A stretch of 49,518 bases of DNA. It comes from an uncultured Pelagibacteraceae bacterium (GTDB taxonomy: Bacteria > Pseudomonadota > Alphaproteobacteria > Pelagibacterales > Pelagibacteraceae). The first letter of the stretch is position 1. Each line of letters starts with the position of its first letter. This document shows, one piece after another, positions 15,828 to 21,536 of this stretch. The notes under the pieces are model-generated. The model was not told the DNA's origin and did not search any database. It saw only the letters and a program-made list of their open reading frames with translations. The stretch is from assembly GCA_902572945.1 (NCBI GenBank), contig CACGHU010000003.1, positions 1-49,518 of the forward strand, read 5' to 3'. Position numbers and translations under genes: made by a program.

Positions 15828-16225
15828 TGGTTAAAAAATATCTTAAAAAAATCATTGCTCAATCCCCACAAGATTTACAGGTGATTTCAGCATGTTGTGA
15901 AGGCGGAAAAATCAAAATTGATGAGATTAAATATTTACCTGAAAACAAAATTTTTTTCTTTTTAATTGAGAGAATTGCAAGAGAAAAAGGAAATTCAAAA
16001 GAAAAGGTAAAAAGTATAGTTAAATTTGAATATATAGAAAAATCAAAATCTAAAAATATTGACAGTAGAAAAATTGACTCATTTGTTGAATTAGCCGCAA
16101 TCAACCTTTTTAAAAATAATAAAAATTATGAAATAACACTATTATTTTCAAATAATGGAATTATAACATTAACAGCAGAAATTGTTGAGGCAGTATTAGA
16201 GGATCAAAATAAAATAAATGATTAA
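15827..16225 (+). CDS. DUF2948 family protein
   Basis: IIAQSPQDLQVISACCEGGKIKIDEIKYLPE...; located between murA and hisD as in other alphaproteobacteria. Confidence 0.75.
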   Translation: MVKKYLKKIIAQSPQDLQVISACCEGGKIKIDEIKYLPENKIFFFLIERIAREKGNSKEKVKSIVKFEYIEKSKSKNIDSRKIDSFVELAAINLFKNNKNYEITLLFSNNGIITLTAEIVEAVLEDQNKIND

Positions 16226-17492
16226 AATTATAAAATATAGAAATGGGTCGGGGCACAATTACTTGAAAAACTTTCTTGATAGAAGGAGAAATTCTAAAAA
16301 TACTGATGTTGATCTTGTAAATAAAATTATTAATGACGTCAAAAAAAATAAATTTAAAGCTCTAAAAAAATACGAGAATAAATATTCAAAAAATAAGGAA
16401 ATTAAGTTATCCAAAAAAAAAATTAGTAATACAATAAAAAATTTGGATAAAAATGTTAAAAAGGCTATTGATTATGCTTATGAAAGAATTTTTAAATTTC
16501 ACATACTTCAAGTCAAAAATTTTAAAAAAATAAGATTTATAGATAAATATAAAAATAAATTGGAGTATAAGTCTATTCCAATAGATTCAGTTGGAGTGTA
16601 CGTTCCTGGTAACTTGCCCTCAACTTTGTTAATGAATTGTATCCCTGCTAAGATTGCAGGAGTAAGAAGAATGGTATTAGCTACTCCAAAAATAAATAAT
16701 AAATTAAATCCTGCTGTTTTATATGCAGCAAAAAAATTAGGTATAAAAGAAATTTTTTCAATGGGAGGGGCTCAAGCGATTGCGAGTTTAGCATTTATTC
16801 AAAAAGTAAATAAAGTCGTTGGCCCAGGTAATAAGTATGTAGCAGAGGCCAAAAGGCAATTATCTGGAAAGATCTTGGGTACAGAAACAATGTATGCAGG
16901 AGCATCTGAGATATGTGTTCTTGCTGATAAAAAATCAGATTTATCTCAAGTTGCAACTTCCTTAGTTTCTCAAGCAGAACATGACCCAGATAGTCAGTGT
17001 ATATTAGTTACTAAAGATAAAAACTTGATAAAAAAAGTTCGAACAGAAGTAAAAAAAATCTTAAGTGATTTACCAAGAAAAATAATAGCTTCAAAGTCAT
17101 TAAAAAAAAATGGCTTATTTATTCTCGTAAAGAATGATAAACAAATAATTGAAACAATAAATGAAATAGCCCCAGAACATCTCGAGCTTAACGTAAAAAA
17201 TTTTAAAAAATATGAAAATAAGATTAAAAATGCCGGAAGTATTTGCAATGGACCAAATACTCCAATGAGTGCATCAGATTATACAGTTGGAACTAATCAT
17301 GTCTTGCCAACTGCAGGTTCCTCAAAATTTAGCTCAGGTTTAAATTTAAATGAATTTACCAAAAAAATATCAATTGTAACTTTGAGTAAATTAGGGGTAG
17401 AAAAAATTGCAAATCCAGCTATAACTCTTTCCGAGTTTGAACAATTACATGGTCATACTCAAAGTATAAAATCTAGAATAAGGAGAAACTAA
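16218..17492 (+). CDS. hisD: histidinol dehydrogenase
   Basis: [73 protein letters not shown]. Confidence 0.97.
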
Positions 17493-18108: not shown

Positions 18109-18124
18109 TTTTCTAAAAATCAAT

Positions 18125-18170
18125 AATTGTAATAGGGATGAGTGGTTAAACTCCATATCCCTATACAATT
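18125..18170. other. long imperfect hairpin (possible cspA 3' terminator or structured RNA)
   Basis: AATTGT-A-ATAGGGAT-GAGT-GGTTAA-ACTC-CAT-ATCCCTAT-ACAATT: 18 paired positions with one bulged A and a 3-nt bulge. Confidence 0.6.
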
Positions 18171-18211
18171 AGCTGTTGCATTTAAAATTTTTTAAGGTAT
18201 TTACCTCACTA

Positions 18212-18286
18212 ATGATTAAAACAAATTACAAAATCGCAAATTCACACAGACATCATTTTCATGCTGGCTGCACGCTAGCAATTTAA
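18212..18286 (+). CDS. candidate His-rich leader peptide upstream of tRNA-His/hisS
   Basis: Hand translation of ATGATTAAAACAAATTACAAAATCGCAAATTCACACAGACATCATTTTCATGCTGGCTGCACGCTAGCAATTTAA = MIKTNYKIANSHRHHFHAGCTLAI*; four His codons in six codons; followed by tRNA-His, hisS, hisZ, hisG. Confidence 0.6.
   Translation: MIKTNYKIANSHRHHFHAGCTLAI
18263..18279 (+). promoter_or_regulatory. GC-rich hairpin just after the His codons of the leader ORF (candidate attenuator/pause hairpin)
   Basis: GCTGGC-TGCAC-GCTAGC: six contiguous pairs (one G-T), followed by AATTTAAT. Confidence 0.45.
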
Positions 18287-18335
18287 TCATATTATAAATT
18301 TAAAATTAACTACAATTAGTATAAAATAAAGAAAG

Positions 18336-18410
18336 GCCCTGGTGGTGAAATGGTTATCACGAAAGTTTGTGGAACTTTAGTTTTTGGTTCGATCCCAAGC
18401 CAGGGTACCA
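18336..18410 (+). tRNA. tRNA-His(GTG)
   Basis: GCCCTGGTGGTGAAATGGTTATCACGAAAGTTTGTGGAACTTTAGTTTTTGGTTCGATCCCAAGCCAGGGTACCA; anticodon loop TTGTGGA; encoded CCA; adjacent to hisS. Confidence 0.95.
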
Positions 18411-18414
18411 AAAA

Positions 18415-19812
18415 ATGGAAAAAAACAAAAAACTCATACCTGGACTACCTACAGGTTTTGAAGATAGATGGGACAAAAAATTATACCTCAAAAAGAAACT
18501 TCTTAGTTTAATTGAGGAAAATTTTATAAGATATGGTTTTGAACCATTGGAAACGCCATCTTTTGAAATCAGTGAAAACATCGGATCATTTCTTGCAGAT
18601 GATGAAAGTAATCCTATGTCTGATGTATTTACTTTTAACGATGGAGAAAAAAAAATTACACTTAGATACGACTTATCAAGTCCTCTAGCAAGATTTGTTG
18701 CACAGAATAATCAACAACTTCCTCTTCCCTATAAACGTTATGCTATACAAAATGTTTTTAGAAACGAAAAAGCTGGTAACGCTCGTTACAGAGAATTTAC
18801 TCAAGCGGATTGTGATATAGTTGGAAACGTAAATCCAGCACAATCAAATGCAGAATTATGTAATTTAATAGCAAGCACTTTAATAAATTGTGGGCTTAAA
18901 AAAGATCAATTTATCATTAACGTGAGTAATAGAAAAATAATCCAGGGTTTAATACAAGACTTAAAAATTCCAGAGGAAAAACAAGTTAAAGTTATGAGAG
19001 CAATAGATAAGCTTGATAAACCAGGTTTTGGATTAAAAGGTGTTGAGGATTTATTGAAAAAAGAAAGAAAAGATAAAAGCGGTGCAGTTACAAAAGGTGC
19101 AAATTTAAGCGATGATCAAGCATTTCAACTCATCGATTTCTTAAAAATTAAAGACCTTAAAGAACTAAAGAAAAATTTTCAAAATTCACTCACCTTAGAA
19201 GGCATCAATGAAATCGAGCAATTATATGAGATTTTAAGTTATGGAGATTATAGCGATCAGGTAAAAACTAATTTTACAATTGTAAGAGGTCTCGAATATT
19301 ATGACGGATTCTGTGTCGAAACTAATCTGAAATTTAAAGTTACTAACAATAAGGGCAAGGAGATTGATATTGGCAGCATTTGTTCAGGTGGTCAGTACAA
19401 CAAGCTAATATCAAGGTTTAAAGGAGTAGATATTCCAGGCACCGGATTTAGTATTGGAGTAGATAGACTATTGTTTGCAATTTTGCAGTTAGGACAAATA
19501 GAAGTCGATAGCAAGAAACCGGCAATTGTTTGCGTAATGGATAAAAAATACCTCAAGAACTATTACGAAATACTCAAAATTCTAAGAGATAACGGAATAA
19601 GCTCTGAAATTTTTTTAGATAGTGAAAAAAATCTTGGAAAGCAACTAACTTATGCAAATAAAAGAGGATGTCCGGTAGCGGTAATTTGTGGAGAAAACGA
19701 GTTTAAAGAAAATACTATTACACTAAAAAATTTGCTAGGTGCAAAAGGAGAAAGCAATCAAATTACAATTCCAAAAGAAAACTTAATCAATGAAATCAAA
19801 AAATTCGTCTAA
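18415..19812 (+). CDS. hisS: histidyl-tRNA synthetase
   Basis: IPGLPTGFEDRW, TLRYDLSSPLARFVAQN, KRYAIQNVFRNEKAGNARYREFTQADCDIVG, RGLEYYDGFCVETN. The track ORF start at 18367 lies inside tRNA-His; first ATG is at 18415 (MEKNKKLIPGLPTG). Confidence 0.95.
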   Translation: MEKNKKLIPGLPTGFEDRWDKKLYLKKKLLSLIEENFIRYGFEPLETPSFEISENIGSFLADDESNPMSDVFTFNDGEKKITLRYDLSSPLARFVAQNNQQLPLPYKRYAIQNVFRNEKAGNARYREFTQADCDIVGNVNPAQSNAELCNLIASTLINCGLKKDQFIINVSNRKIIQGLIQDLKIPEEKQVKVMRAIDKLDKPGFGLKGVEDLLKKERKDKSGAVTKGANLSDDQAFQLIDFLKIKDLKELKKNFQNSLTLEGINEIEQLYEILSYGDYSDQVKTNFTIVRGLEYYDGFCVETNLKFKVTNNKGKEIDIGSICSGGQYNKLISRFKGVDIPGTGFSIGVDRLLFAILQLGQIEVDSKKPAIVCVMDKKYLKNYYEILKILRDNGISSEIFLDSEKNLGKQLTYANKRGCPVAVICGENEFKENTITLKNLLGAKGESNQITIPKENLINEIKKFV

Positions 19813-20851
19813 CAAAATCCTTGCATTAATTAAATCGCAGGGATTTAACAAAATCGAACTCGACTCTGTTTTGGAAACCAAATACATTTTGCAAAGATCG
19901 GGGGAAAATTTTAGAAAATATCTATTTTCTTTTTATAACTCAAATGGCGAAGAGTTATGTTTAAGACCAGATTTAACAATTTCCTCAGTATTACGATACG
20001 CTCAAGGAAACAGATTTAATAAGGAAAAGGTGTTTTATACGGGCAGTGCATTTAGAAAATCTTATAATAAGAAAAATATTTTAATAAAACAAATAGGTAT
20101 GGAAATTTTTTCATCTAAAGATGAAAATAAAGATGATAGAGAAATAATAGATACATCCATTAAAGTTTTAAAAAAAATAGGTTTTAAAAAAGCTAAGGTT
20201 GAAATTGGTAATTTCAAGATATTCGAATTATTAATTCAAAAACTTTCCATACCCCAAAGATGGAAGGATCGTCTTATCAAATTTTATTGGAATAAAAAAT
20301 ATTTTTCACAGTTACTAAAAAGGTTAGATAGTAATTCAGATATAGACCCCTTCATTGTTGCTGGAGATCACAAAACATATCTGAAAATGAAAAAAGAAAA
20401 CCCTAAAAAAATGATTGCTGGAAGAACATATGAGGAAATAATTGAACGATATGAAAGAAAAATAAACGATCCAAGATTAACTAAAACAGGAAAAAAAAGT
20501 TCTAAGATAATTAAAGAATTTCTCCAAATTAAGTGTCCTTTAAAAGACGCACCAAAAAAACTAAACGCTTTTTATAAAAAATATAATTTAAATATTTCTG
20601 TTGCAAAAGAATTTTTTCCTATTTCAAAACTTAATCAAAAAGATCTTAAATTTGAATTTTCGACATCAAGTGGTAGAGGTAGAGAAGTGGAGTTTTACAG
20701 TTCGTTTATATTTTCAATAGATGTAAAAATAAAAGGTAAGACAAAAACATTTATTGCAGGTGGAAGATATAACGACTTGTCCTCAAAAAATTTAGGCCTT
20801 AGAAAAATACCAGCAGTTGGAGCGGCAGTAAATTTAGGAGTTTATGAATAA
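19790..20851 (+). CDS. hisZ: ATP phosphoribosyltransferase regulatory subunit HisZ
   Basis: HisRS-like: LCLRPDLTISSVLRYAQ, FYTGSAFRKS, IAGGRYNDL; followed by short-form hisG. Confidence 0.88.
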   Translation: MKSKNSSNKILALIKSQGFNKIELDSVLETKYILQRSGENFRKYLFSFYNSNGEELCLRPDLTISSVLRYAQGNRFNKEKVFYTGSAFRKSYNKKNILIKQIGMEIFSSKDENKDDREIIDTSIKVLKKIGFKKAKVEIGNFKIFELLIQKLSIPQRWKDRLIKFYWNKKYFSQLLKRLDSNSDIDPFIVAGDHKTYLKMKKENPKKMIAGRTYEEIIERYERKINDPRLTKTGKKSSKIIKEFLQIKCPLKDAPKKLNAFYKKYNLNISVAKEFFPISKLNQKDLKFEFSTSSGRGREVEFYSSFIFSIDVKIKGKTKTFIAGGRYNDLSSKNLGLRKIPAVGAAVNLGVYE

Positions 20852-21536
20852 AGATATTATTAATATAGGTATTGTCTCAAAAGGAAGACTTAAAGAAGAG
20901 TCTGAAAAAATTTTCAGAAAAAATAATTTAAAAATTTACACCGAAGATGGTGAAAGAGGGCTGGTAGCCAAAGTTAAGAGTAGAAAAAATATAAGAGTAT
21001 TATTTCTTCATGCTAGAGAAATTATTGATCAACTATCTTTAGGAAATATTGATTTAGGAATAAGTGGTTTTGATTTACTGATGGAGTCTGAGATAAATAT
21101 TCAAAAAAACATAAAAGTTGAAAAAAAACTTAAATTTGGCTTTGCCACTTTGCAGCTAGCTGTTCGAAAAGAATTTATCGATGTTTTCACAACTTTAGAT
21201 TTAGATGAAGTTGCAGAAGATTATAGAAGAAAAAACAAAAAACTAATTCGTATTGGTACTAAGTATCCAAATCTTACACGTGATGCTTTGTATAAGCGAG
21301 GAGTAACAAATTTTACTATTGTAAAGTCTCTAGGAAGTACAGAATTGATGCCTGCAATGGATACCGCTATGTTGATAAGCGATATTTCCAGCACAGGAAC
21401 TACAATGAAAAAAAATCACCTTAGACCTTTAAGTGATGGTGAAATACTAAAATCACAAGCTTGCTTGTTTAGCTCAAAAAAATCAAAAAGTAAAAAAGGG
21501 TTACAGGGTTTAATAAAGTTATTTTCTAAACAATAA
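20844..21536 (+). CDS. hisG: ATP phosphoribosyltransferase, short form
   Basis: IGIVSKGRLKEES, LGISGFDLLMES, RIGTKYPNLTRDALYKRGVTNFTIVKSLGSTELMP, ISDISSTGTTMKKNHL; 230 aa HisG-S type. Confidence 0.95.
   Translation: MNKDIINIGIVSKGRLKEESEKIFRKNNLKIYTEDGERGLVAKVKSRKNIRVLFLHAREIIDQLSLGNIDLGISGFDLLMESEINIQKNIKVEKKLKFGFATLQLAVRKEFIDVFTTLDLDEVAEDYRRKNKKLIRIGTKYPNLTRDALYKRGVTNFTIVKSLGSTELMPAMDTAMLISDISSTGTTMKKNHLRPLSDGEILKSQACLFSSKKSKSKKGLQGLIKLFSKQ

Follow-up and report, generated by a model that had tools for sequence, protein, structure and literature searches.

The enteric hisL leader, upstream of the his operon, contains several His codons in a row and can adopt alternative folds that exclude each other. 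The SAR11 leader described here is like hisL (Rfam His_leader, RF00514) in having a short ORF with clustered His codons, followed by a hairpin and histidine genes, and unlike it in having one conserved hairpin and hisS as the first protein gene. In the respective search, RF00514 gave no match to it, either at the gathering threshold or at E values up to 10.

His leader peptides have been predicted for hisS* and hisZ of Bacillus (Naville and Gautheret 2010, PMC2965389). These resemble the SAR11 leader in their short His-codon ORFs and in the hisS/hisZ gene family, but they belong to a different phylum, and in the passages compared, neither a tRNA gene within the unit nor a leaderless start is described. 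A leaderless attenuator is found in Sinorhizobium meliloti, where the first nucleotides of the trpL/rnTrpL RNA are the start codon of its leader ORF, an ATG (PMC7298713). It is likewise an alphaproteobacterial attenuator starting at the leader ATG but, on the contrary, it senses Trp, controls trpE(G), and forms terminator and antiterminator folds (PMC7298713). The T-box of Firmicutes also controls hisS through the charging of His-tRNA, but in this case the tRNA binds the RNA directly and there is no translated leader ORF; Rfam scans gave no T-box match upstream of hisS.

The oceanic SAR11 bacteria, which rank with the most abundant cells on Earth, possess few regulators. The leader, which is without annotation in the sources searched, precedes their single histidine tRNA-charging gene. 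For Ca. Pelagibacter ubique, a structured-RNA survey listed candidate intergenic regions after removal of those containing tRNAs (PMC2704228), which may explain the leader's omission. The initial annotation of this DNA knew of no described leader of this architecture and, for SAR11, no earlier description of this kind was found in the open-access literature.

Organization of the Locus

The window, that is, the whole stretch of 49,518 nucleotides analyzed here, had been annotated with a short His-rich ORF alone in a 227-nt gap, carrying four His codons in six and followed on the same strand by His-related genes only. All these elements were recovered (table 1), and nearly identical named loci place the window in a SAR11 (Pelagibacter) genome. 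The gap (18109-18335) is bounded by the cold-shock gene and tRNA-His, and profile matches identify the subsequent genes as hisS, hisZ, and hisG; for hisZ, the top-scoring models are those of HisZ, yet the bit scores are lower than the curated cut-offs. Genes for the synthesis or charging of histidine follow the leader in the window, and in a second family of the order, hisS follows directly. The long hairpin at the start of the gap is probably the 3′ end signal of the cold-shock gene and, as sequence comparison showed, a U-tailed terminator takes its place in other clades.

Table 1. Features of the Leader Region and Its Neighbors in the Window
Feature	Position	Strand	Remarks
hisD	16218-17492	as leader	upstream; infA, tRNA-Phe, and cold-shock gene in between
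Long hairpin AATTGTAATAGGGAT...ATCCCTATACAATT	18125..18170	+	3′ of cold-shock gene; from fold and sequences
Candidate -35 box TTGCAT	18176..18181	+	36 nt before leader ATG
Candidate -10 box TATTTA	18198..18203	+	16-nt spacer; 8 nt before ATG
Leader ORF MIKTNYKIANSHRHHFHAGCTLAI	18212..18286	+	ATG 18212, TAA 18284-18286
His codon block CAC AGA CAT CAT TTT CAT	18245..18262	+	
Hairpin TGCTGGC-TGCAC-GCTAGCA	18262..18280	+	begins at last base of last His codon
Element ctacaattagTATAAAAT	18310..18327	+	before tRNA-His; -10-like (TATAAAA type), without -35 box
tRNA-His (GTG)	18336..18410	+	in presumed regulated transcript (window's family)
hisS, histidyl-tRNA synthetase	18415..19812	+	TIGR00442, 344.8 bits
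hisZ, ATP phosphoribosyltransferase regulatory subunit	19790..20851	+	overlaps hisS
hisG, ATP phosphoribosyltransferase	20844..21536	+	overlaps hisZ; TIGR00070, 153.2 bits

A chance origin of the leader ORF is unlikely, because four His in six codons within an ATG ORF came up only twice when the gap was shuffled 20,000 times with dinucleotides preserved. The leader is also alone in this property among the 487 short ATG ORFs of the window. In G298, the complete genome of a relative, at least three His in six codons are present in its ortholog and in no other intergenic short ATG ORF (438 in all). Rfam and NCBIfam gave no match for the leader, and a scan of G298 for other amino-acid leaders of this type, covering 15 amino acids (all but Phe, Leu, Ile, Lys, and Asn), revealed no convincing second case.

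Conservation across the Pelagibacterales

Far stronger evidence than one sequence can give comes from the conservation of the leader throughout the order. An ORF with His codons is located upstream of hisS in essentially all Pelagibacterales loci examined (about 170 regions from two families and many genera), as found through genome searches at the family, order, and class level and comparison of the upstream regions. In detail, at least two His within eight codons are present in 167 of 169 Pelagibacterales regions and at least three in 100 of them, many of these regions being close relatives and thus not independent, whereas at least three were found in none of the 28 hisS regions of other alphaproteobacteria. 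All 80 named Pelagibacteraceae hisS loci (L052 included) carry a short His-containing ORF at the same position, and the leader is likewise kept in 20 more loci of the genus with a differing tRNA-His.

The peptides diverge strongly from genus to genus yet hold on to His, for instance HRHHFHAG, HSHSHRVHA, HSHHHFHA, HTHIHAG, and the 11-aa MFIIKHHHLHI. Leaders of other genera of the same family include HSHSHRVHAKLLLS, STHRHHPHAEHTLS, HSHHHFHAKHGLGN, and AKHHFAHARLLLS. In the second family, the leader is an 11-aa peptide (also MFKFKHYHYHI and MLIIKHHHSHI) which adjoins hisS, with no tRNA-His between them. The fewest His codons are found in one large subclade of the window's genus, where just two are left (THRNCFHSQ), and in L088 and L167, with one each.

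Among 151 genomes of the genus (66 positive), none carries the hallmark pattern of one leader type more than once, nor does any of 97 genomes of the order (36 positive) carry that of the second family more than once. Reversed patterns, used as controls for both, gave zero matches, and all matches compared with hisS coordinates lie just upstream of this gene. The initial annotation had named an in-frame ORF with His codons in orthologous intergenic regions as support for the leader, and its loss or frameshifting as refutation; the ORF is kept, and neither loss nor a frameshift was found in the His block of these regions. The order-wide conservation points to what may be a built-in gauge, matching hisS expression to histidine supply.

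The Hairpin and the Proposed Attenuation Mechanism

In the window's family, the last His codon marks the start of the hairpin, with the stop codon placed inside the hairpin or just after it (3 nt past it in the window). In the second family, the hairpin is set 6 nt downstream of the last His codon, immediately behind the stop. Its arms covary between groups (GCTGGC/GCTAGC, GCAAGC/GCTTGC, GCTAAGC/GCTTAGC, AGCC/GGCT, and TGCC/GGCA), as the initial annotation had anticipated for conserved stems, and no broken pair was met among the manually counted representatives. When four groups were each folded to a consensus, this hairpin emerged as the common helix, and no conserved competing antiterminator helix appeared. 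Consequently, the resemblance to enteric hisL logic that had been proposed holds for the His-codon ORF, the hairpin, and the His genes but not for alternative antiterminator folds, since only one hairpin is conserved. Leaders of the HAG* type (L041, L045-L047, and similar ones) have a second covarying hairpin within the ORF, upstream of the first (CTTTAAGA...TCTTAAAG), which is a possible pause site.

The locus is likely to encode a histidine-sensing leader-peptide attenuator, in which a ribosome stalled at the His codons masks the hairpin. Translation of the leader, stalling, and an effect on transcription are what we infer from the sequences. With plentiful His-tRNA, the ribosome would clear the His codons and leave, the hairpin would form, and less transcription would proceed into tRNA-His-hisS-hisZ-hisG. 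With scarce His-tRNA, the ribosome would stall at the His codons and cover the 5′ arm of the hairpin, and transcription would go on. As no competing fold is conserved, the stalled ribosome itself would be the antiterminator, and the compact design makes it easy to test whether a stalled ribosome can act in this way by itself. Translational coupling is unlikely in the window's family because the tRNA between the leader and hisS is cut from the transcript; in this family, transcription is the likeliest level of control.

The output of the sensor may be a different one. Rho access, RNA polymerase pausing, or cleavage or stability of the precursor RNA could be governed by the hairpin and the position of the ribosome, with the same His codons as the sensor, a reading which differs from the attenuator in its output only and which we regard as a serious contender, though with less than an even chance. 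The sequence after the hairpin speaks on both sides. The number of T in the following 8 nt is 4.0-5.6 in the window's genus, 3.3 in other genera of its family, and 0.17 in the second family, against a background of 2.84. The U-tract is modest in the window's genus, where the T-enriched tail argues for termination at the hairpin itself, and absent in the second family; an intrinsic terminator is not general, because the tail is not U-rich in the other genera of the first family and almost U-less in the second. Rho is encoded in all five genomes checked, and in the second family (L222-L228), a conserved C-rich, G-poor stretch (ACAACCCC) follows the hairpin, but it is short for a Rho site. The tRNA downstream of the leader in the window's family requires processing, but no cleavage signal was identified.

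A long-range pairing between the 5′ end of the RNA and the sequence behind the hairpin was also considered and rejected, since many clades are without it. It is strong in some leaders of the window's genus (-7 kcal/mol), but native tails show no more than a modest gain over swapped ones (mean -5.0 vs. -4.0). In L222-L228, another inverted repeat is located near the start of hisS.

Candidate Promoter Elements and a Probable Leaderless Start

Of 143 distinct leaders, 134 have a TTG[ACT][ACT] box (TTGCAT/TTGAAT type) located 33-38 nt, mostly 34-36 nt, before an in-frame ATG. As the -35 box stands about 35 nt and the -10 box 7-8 nt before the ATG, transcription would start at the ATG or within 1-2 nt of it, and the nascent RNA would open with the leader ORF. 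The leader ORF is thus probably leaderless, and ribosomes would load its RNA as a leaderless message, as far as the promoter spacing indicates.

The -10-like element preceding tRNA-His could serve as an additional promoter from which the tRNA and hisS are transcribed without passing the leader. That these two genes are transcribed mainly from it, so that the leader acts on a minor readthrough transcript, is unlikely. The ATAWAA motif is indeed present in 96 of 99 distinct segments between the leader and the tRNA, but a TTGnn box is found in just two of the 99, while in G298 TTG boxes do precede several of the other tRNA genes. The second family, moreover, keeps the leader without the tRNA. The TATAAAA-type element is conserved before tRNA-His, and no such element was seen ahead of the remaining tRNA genes in G298.

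Coding Signature of the Leader

In the window's clade, the substitutions across 38 distinct ORFs separate the leader into two parts. Codons 2-11 show 221 nonsynonymous and 30 synonymous differences, and this N-terminal part drifts freely, unconstrained. In the HRHHFH block of the same ORFs, 19 differences are synonymous and 13 nonsynonymous, and changes are predominantly found at the third position (27 vs. 9 and 4 at the first and second), in line with the synonymous bias that had been predicted for a genuine leader. At aligned His positions, the codon is either CAT or CAC, apart from one CAA. The length of the N-terminal part varies across the leaders while the His block remains in frame, and the stop codon is TAA, TAG, or TGA. 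A short ORF enriched in the regulated amino acid is the mark of a ribosome-mediated attenuator and, judging from the His enrichment and the coding-type substitutions, the leader appears to bear it.

It is very improbable that the product is a functional small His-rich peptide, for example a metal-binding one, or that the short RNA acts in trans like peTrpL/rnTrpL. The peptide does contain His and Cys, and trans roles have been reported for the Sinorhizobium trp leader (PMC7298713), but the leader is single copy and adjoins hisS, its N-terminus is without constraint, and the peptide of the second family has only 11 aa and a different pattern. A trans role on top of the attenuation is conceivable, however. 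An incidental ORF over a conserved RNA or DNA element comprising the hairpin and the gap is scarcely credible: the hairpin is well conserved, but the His codons stay though their nucleotides change, third-base changes are synonymous, the block keeps its frame despite the varying N-terminal length and stop codons, and no frameshifted His block was seen.

Exchange of tRNA-His and hisS behind the Leader

The genes behind the leader vary strongly between strains in some loci of one genus (L016, L025, L030, and L111-L130), where the identity of HisS falls to 41-63% while that of the cold-shock protein upstream is mostly 75-97%. For instance, L128 and the window share 93% identity in the cold-shock protein and 58% in HisS, and their tRNA-His differ. 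Clustering of tRNA-His at 80% gave 14 groups in the window's family. Since some groups represent shifted extracts of the same type, the distinct types are fewer, roughly ten. By these comparisons, tRNA-His and hisS are exchanged between strains of one genus behind a fixed leader. Co-transfer of tRNA-His and HisRS into SAR11 has been discussed earlier as possible (PMC3937112); what the present loci add is that the pair is exchanged among strains while the leader stays in place.

Tentatively, the order as a whole may possess a leaderless attenuator with a single hairpin. In it, the stalled ribosome would replace the antiterminator, and the gene of the sensed tRNA would be controlled together with its synthetase, the unit being fixed and the tRNA-His/HisS pair repeatedly exchanged. 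If true, such an order-wide translated sensor would directly illustrate the control of an essential gene in streamlined cells.

Two of these loci also differ further upstream. In L016 and L030, infA is at a divergent level of identity (60-63%) while hisD is 92-94% identical to that of the window, which suggests that infA may have been exchanged too. In L117, the gene after hisZ, in the place where hisG is expected, has a start like that of a sulfotransferase, which we presume it to be.
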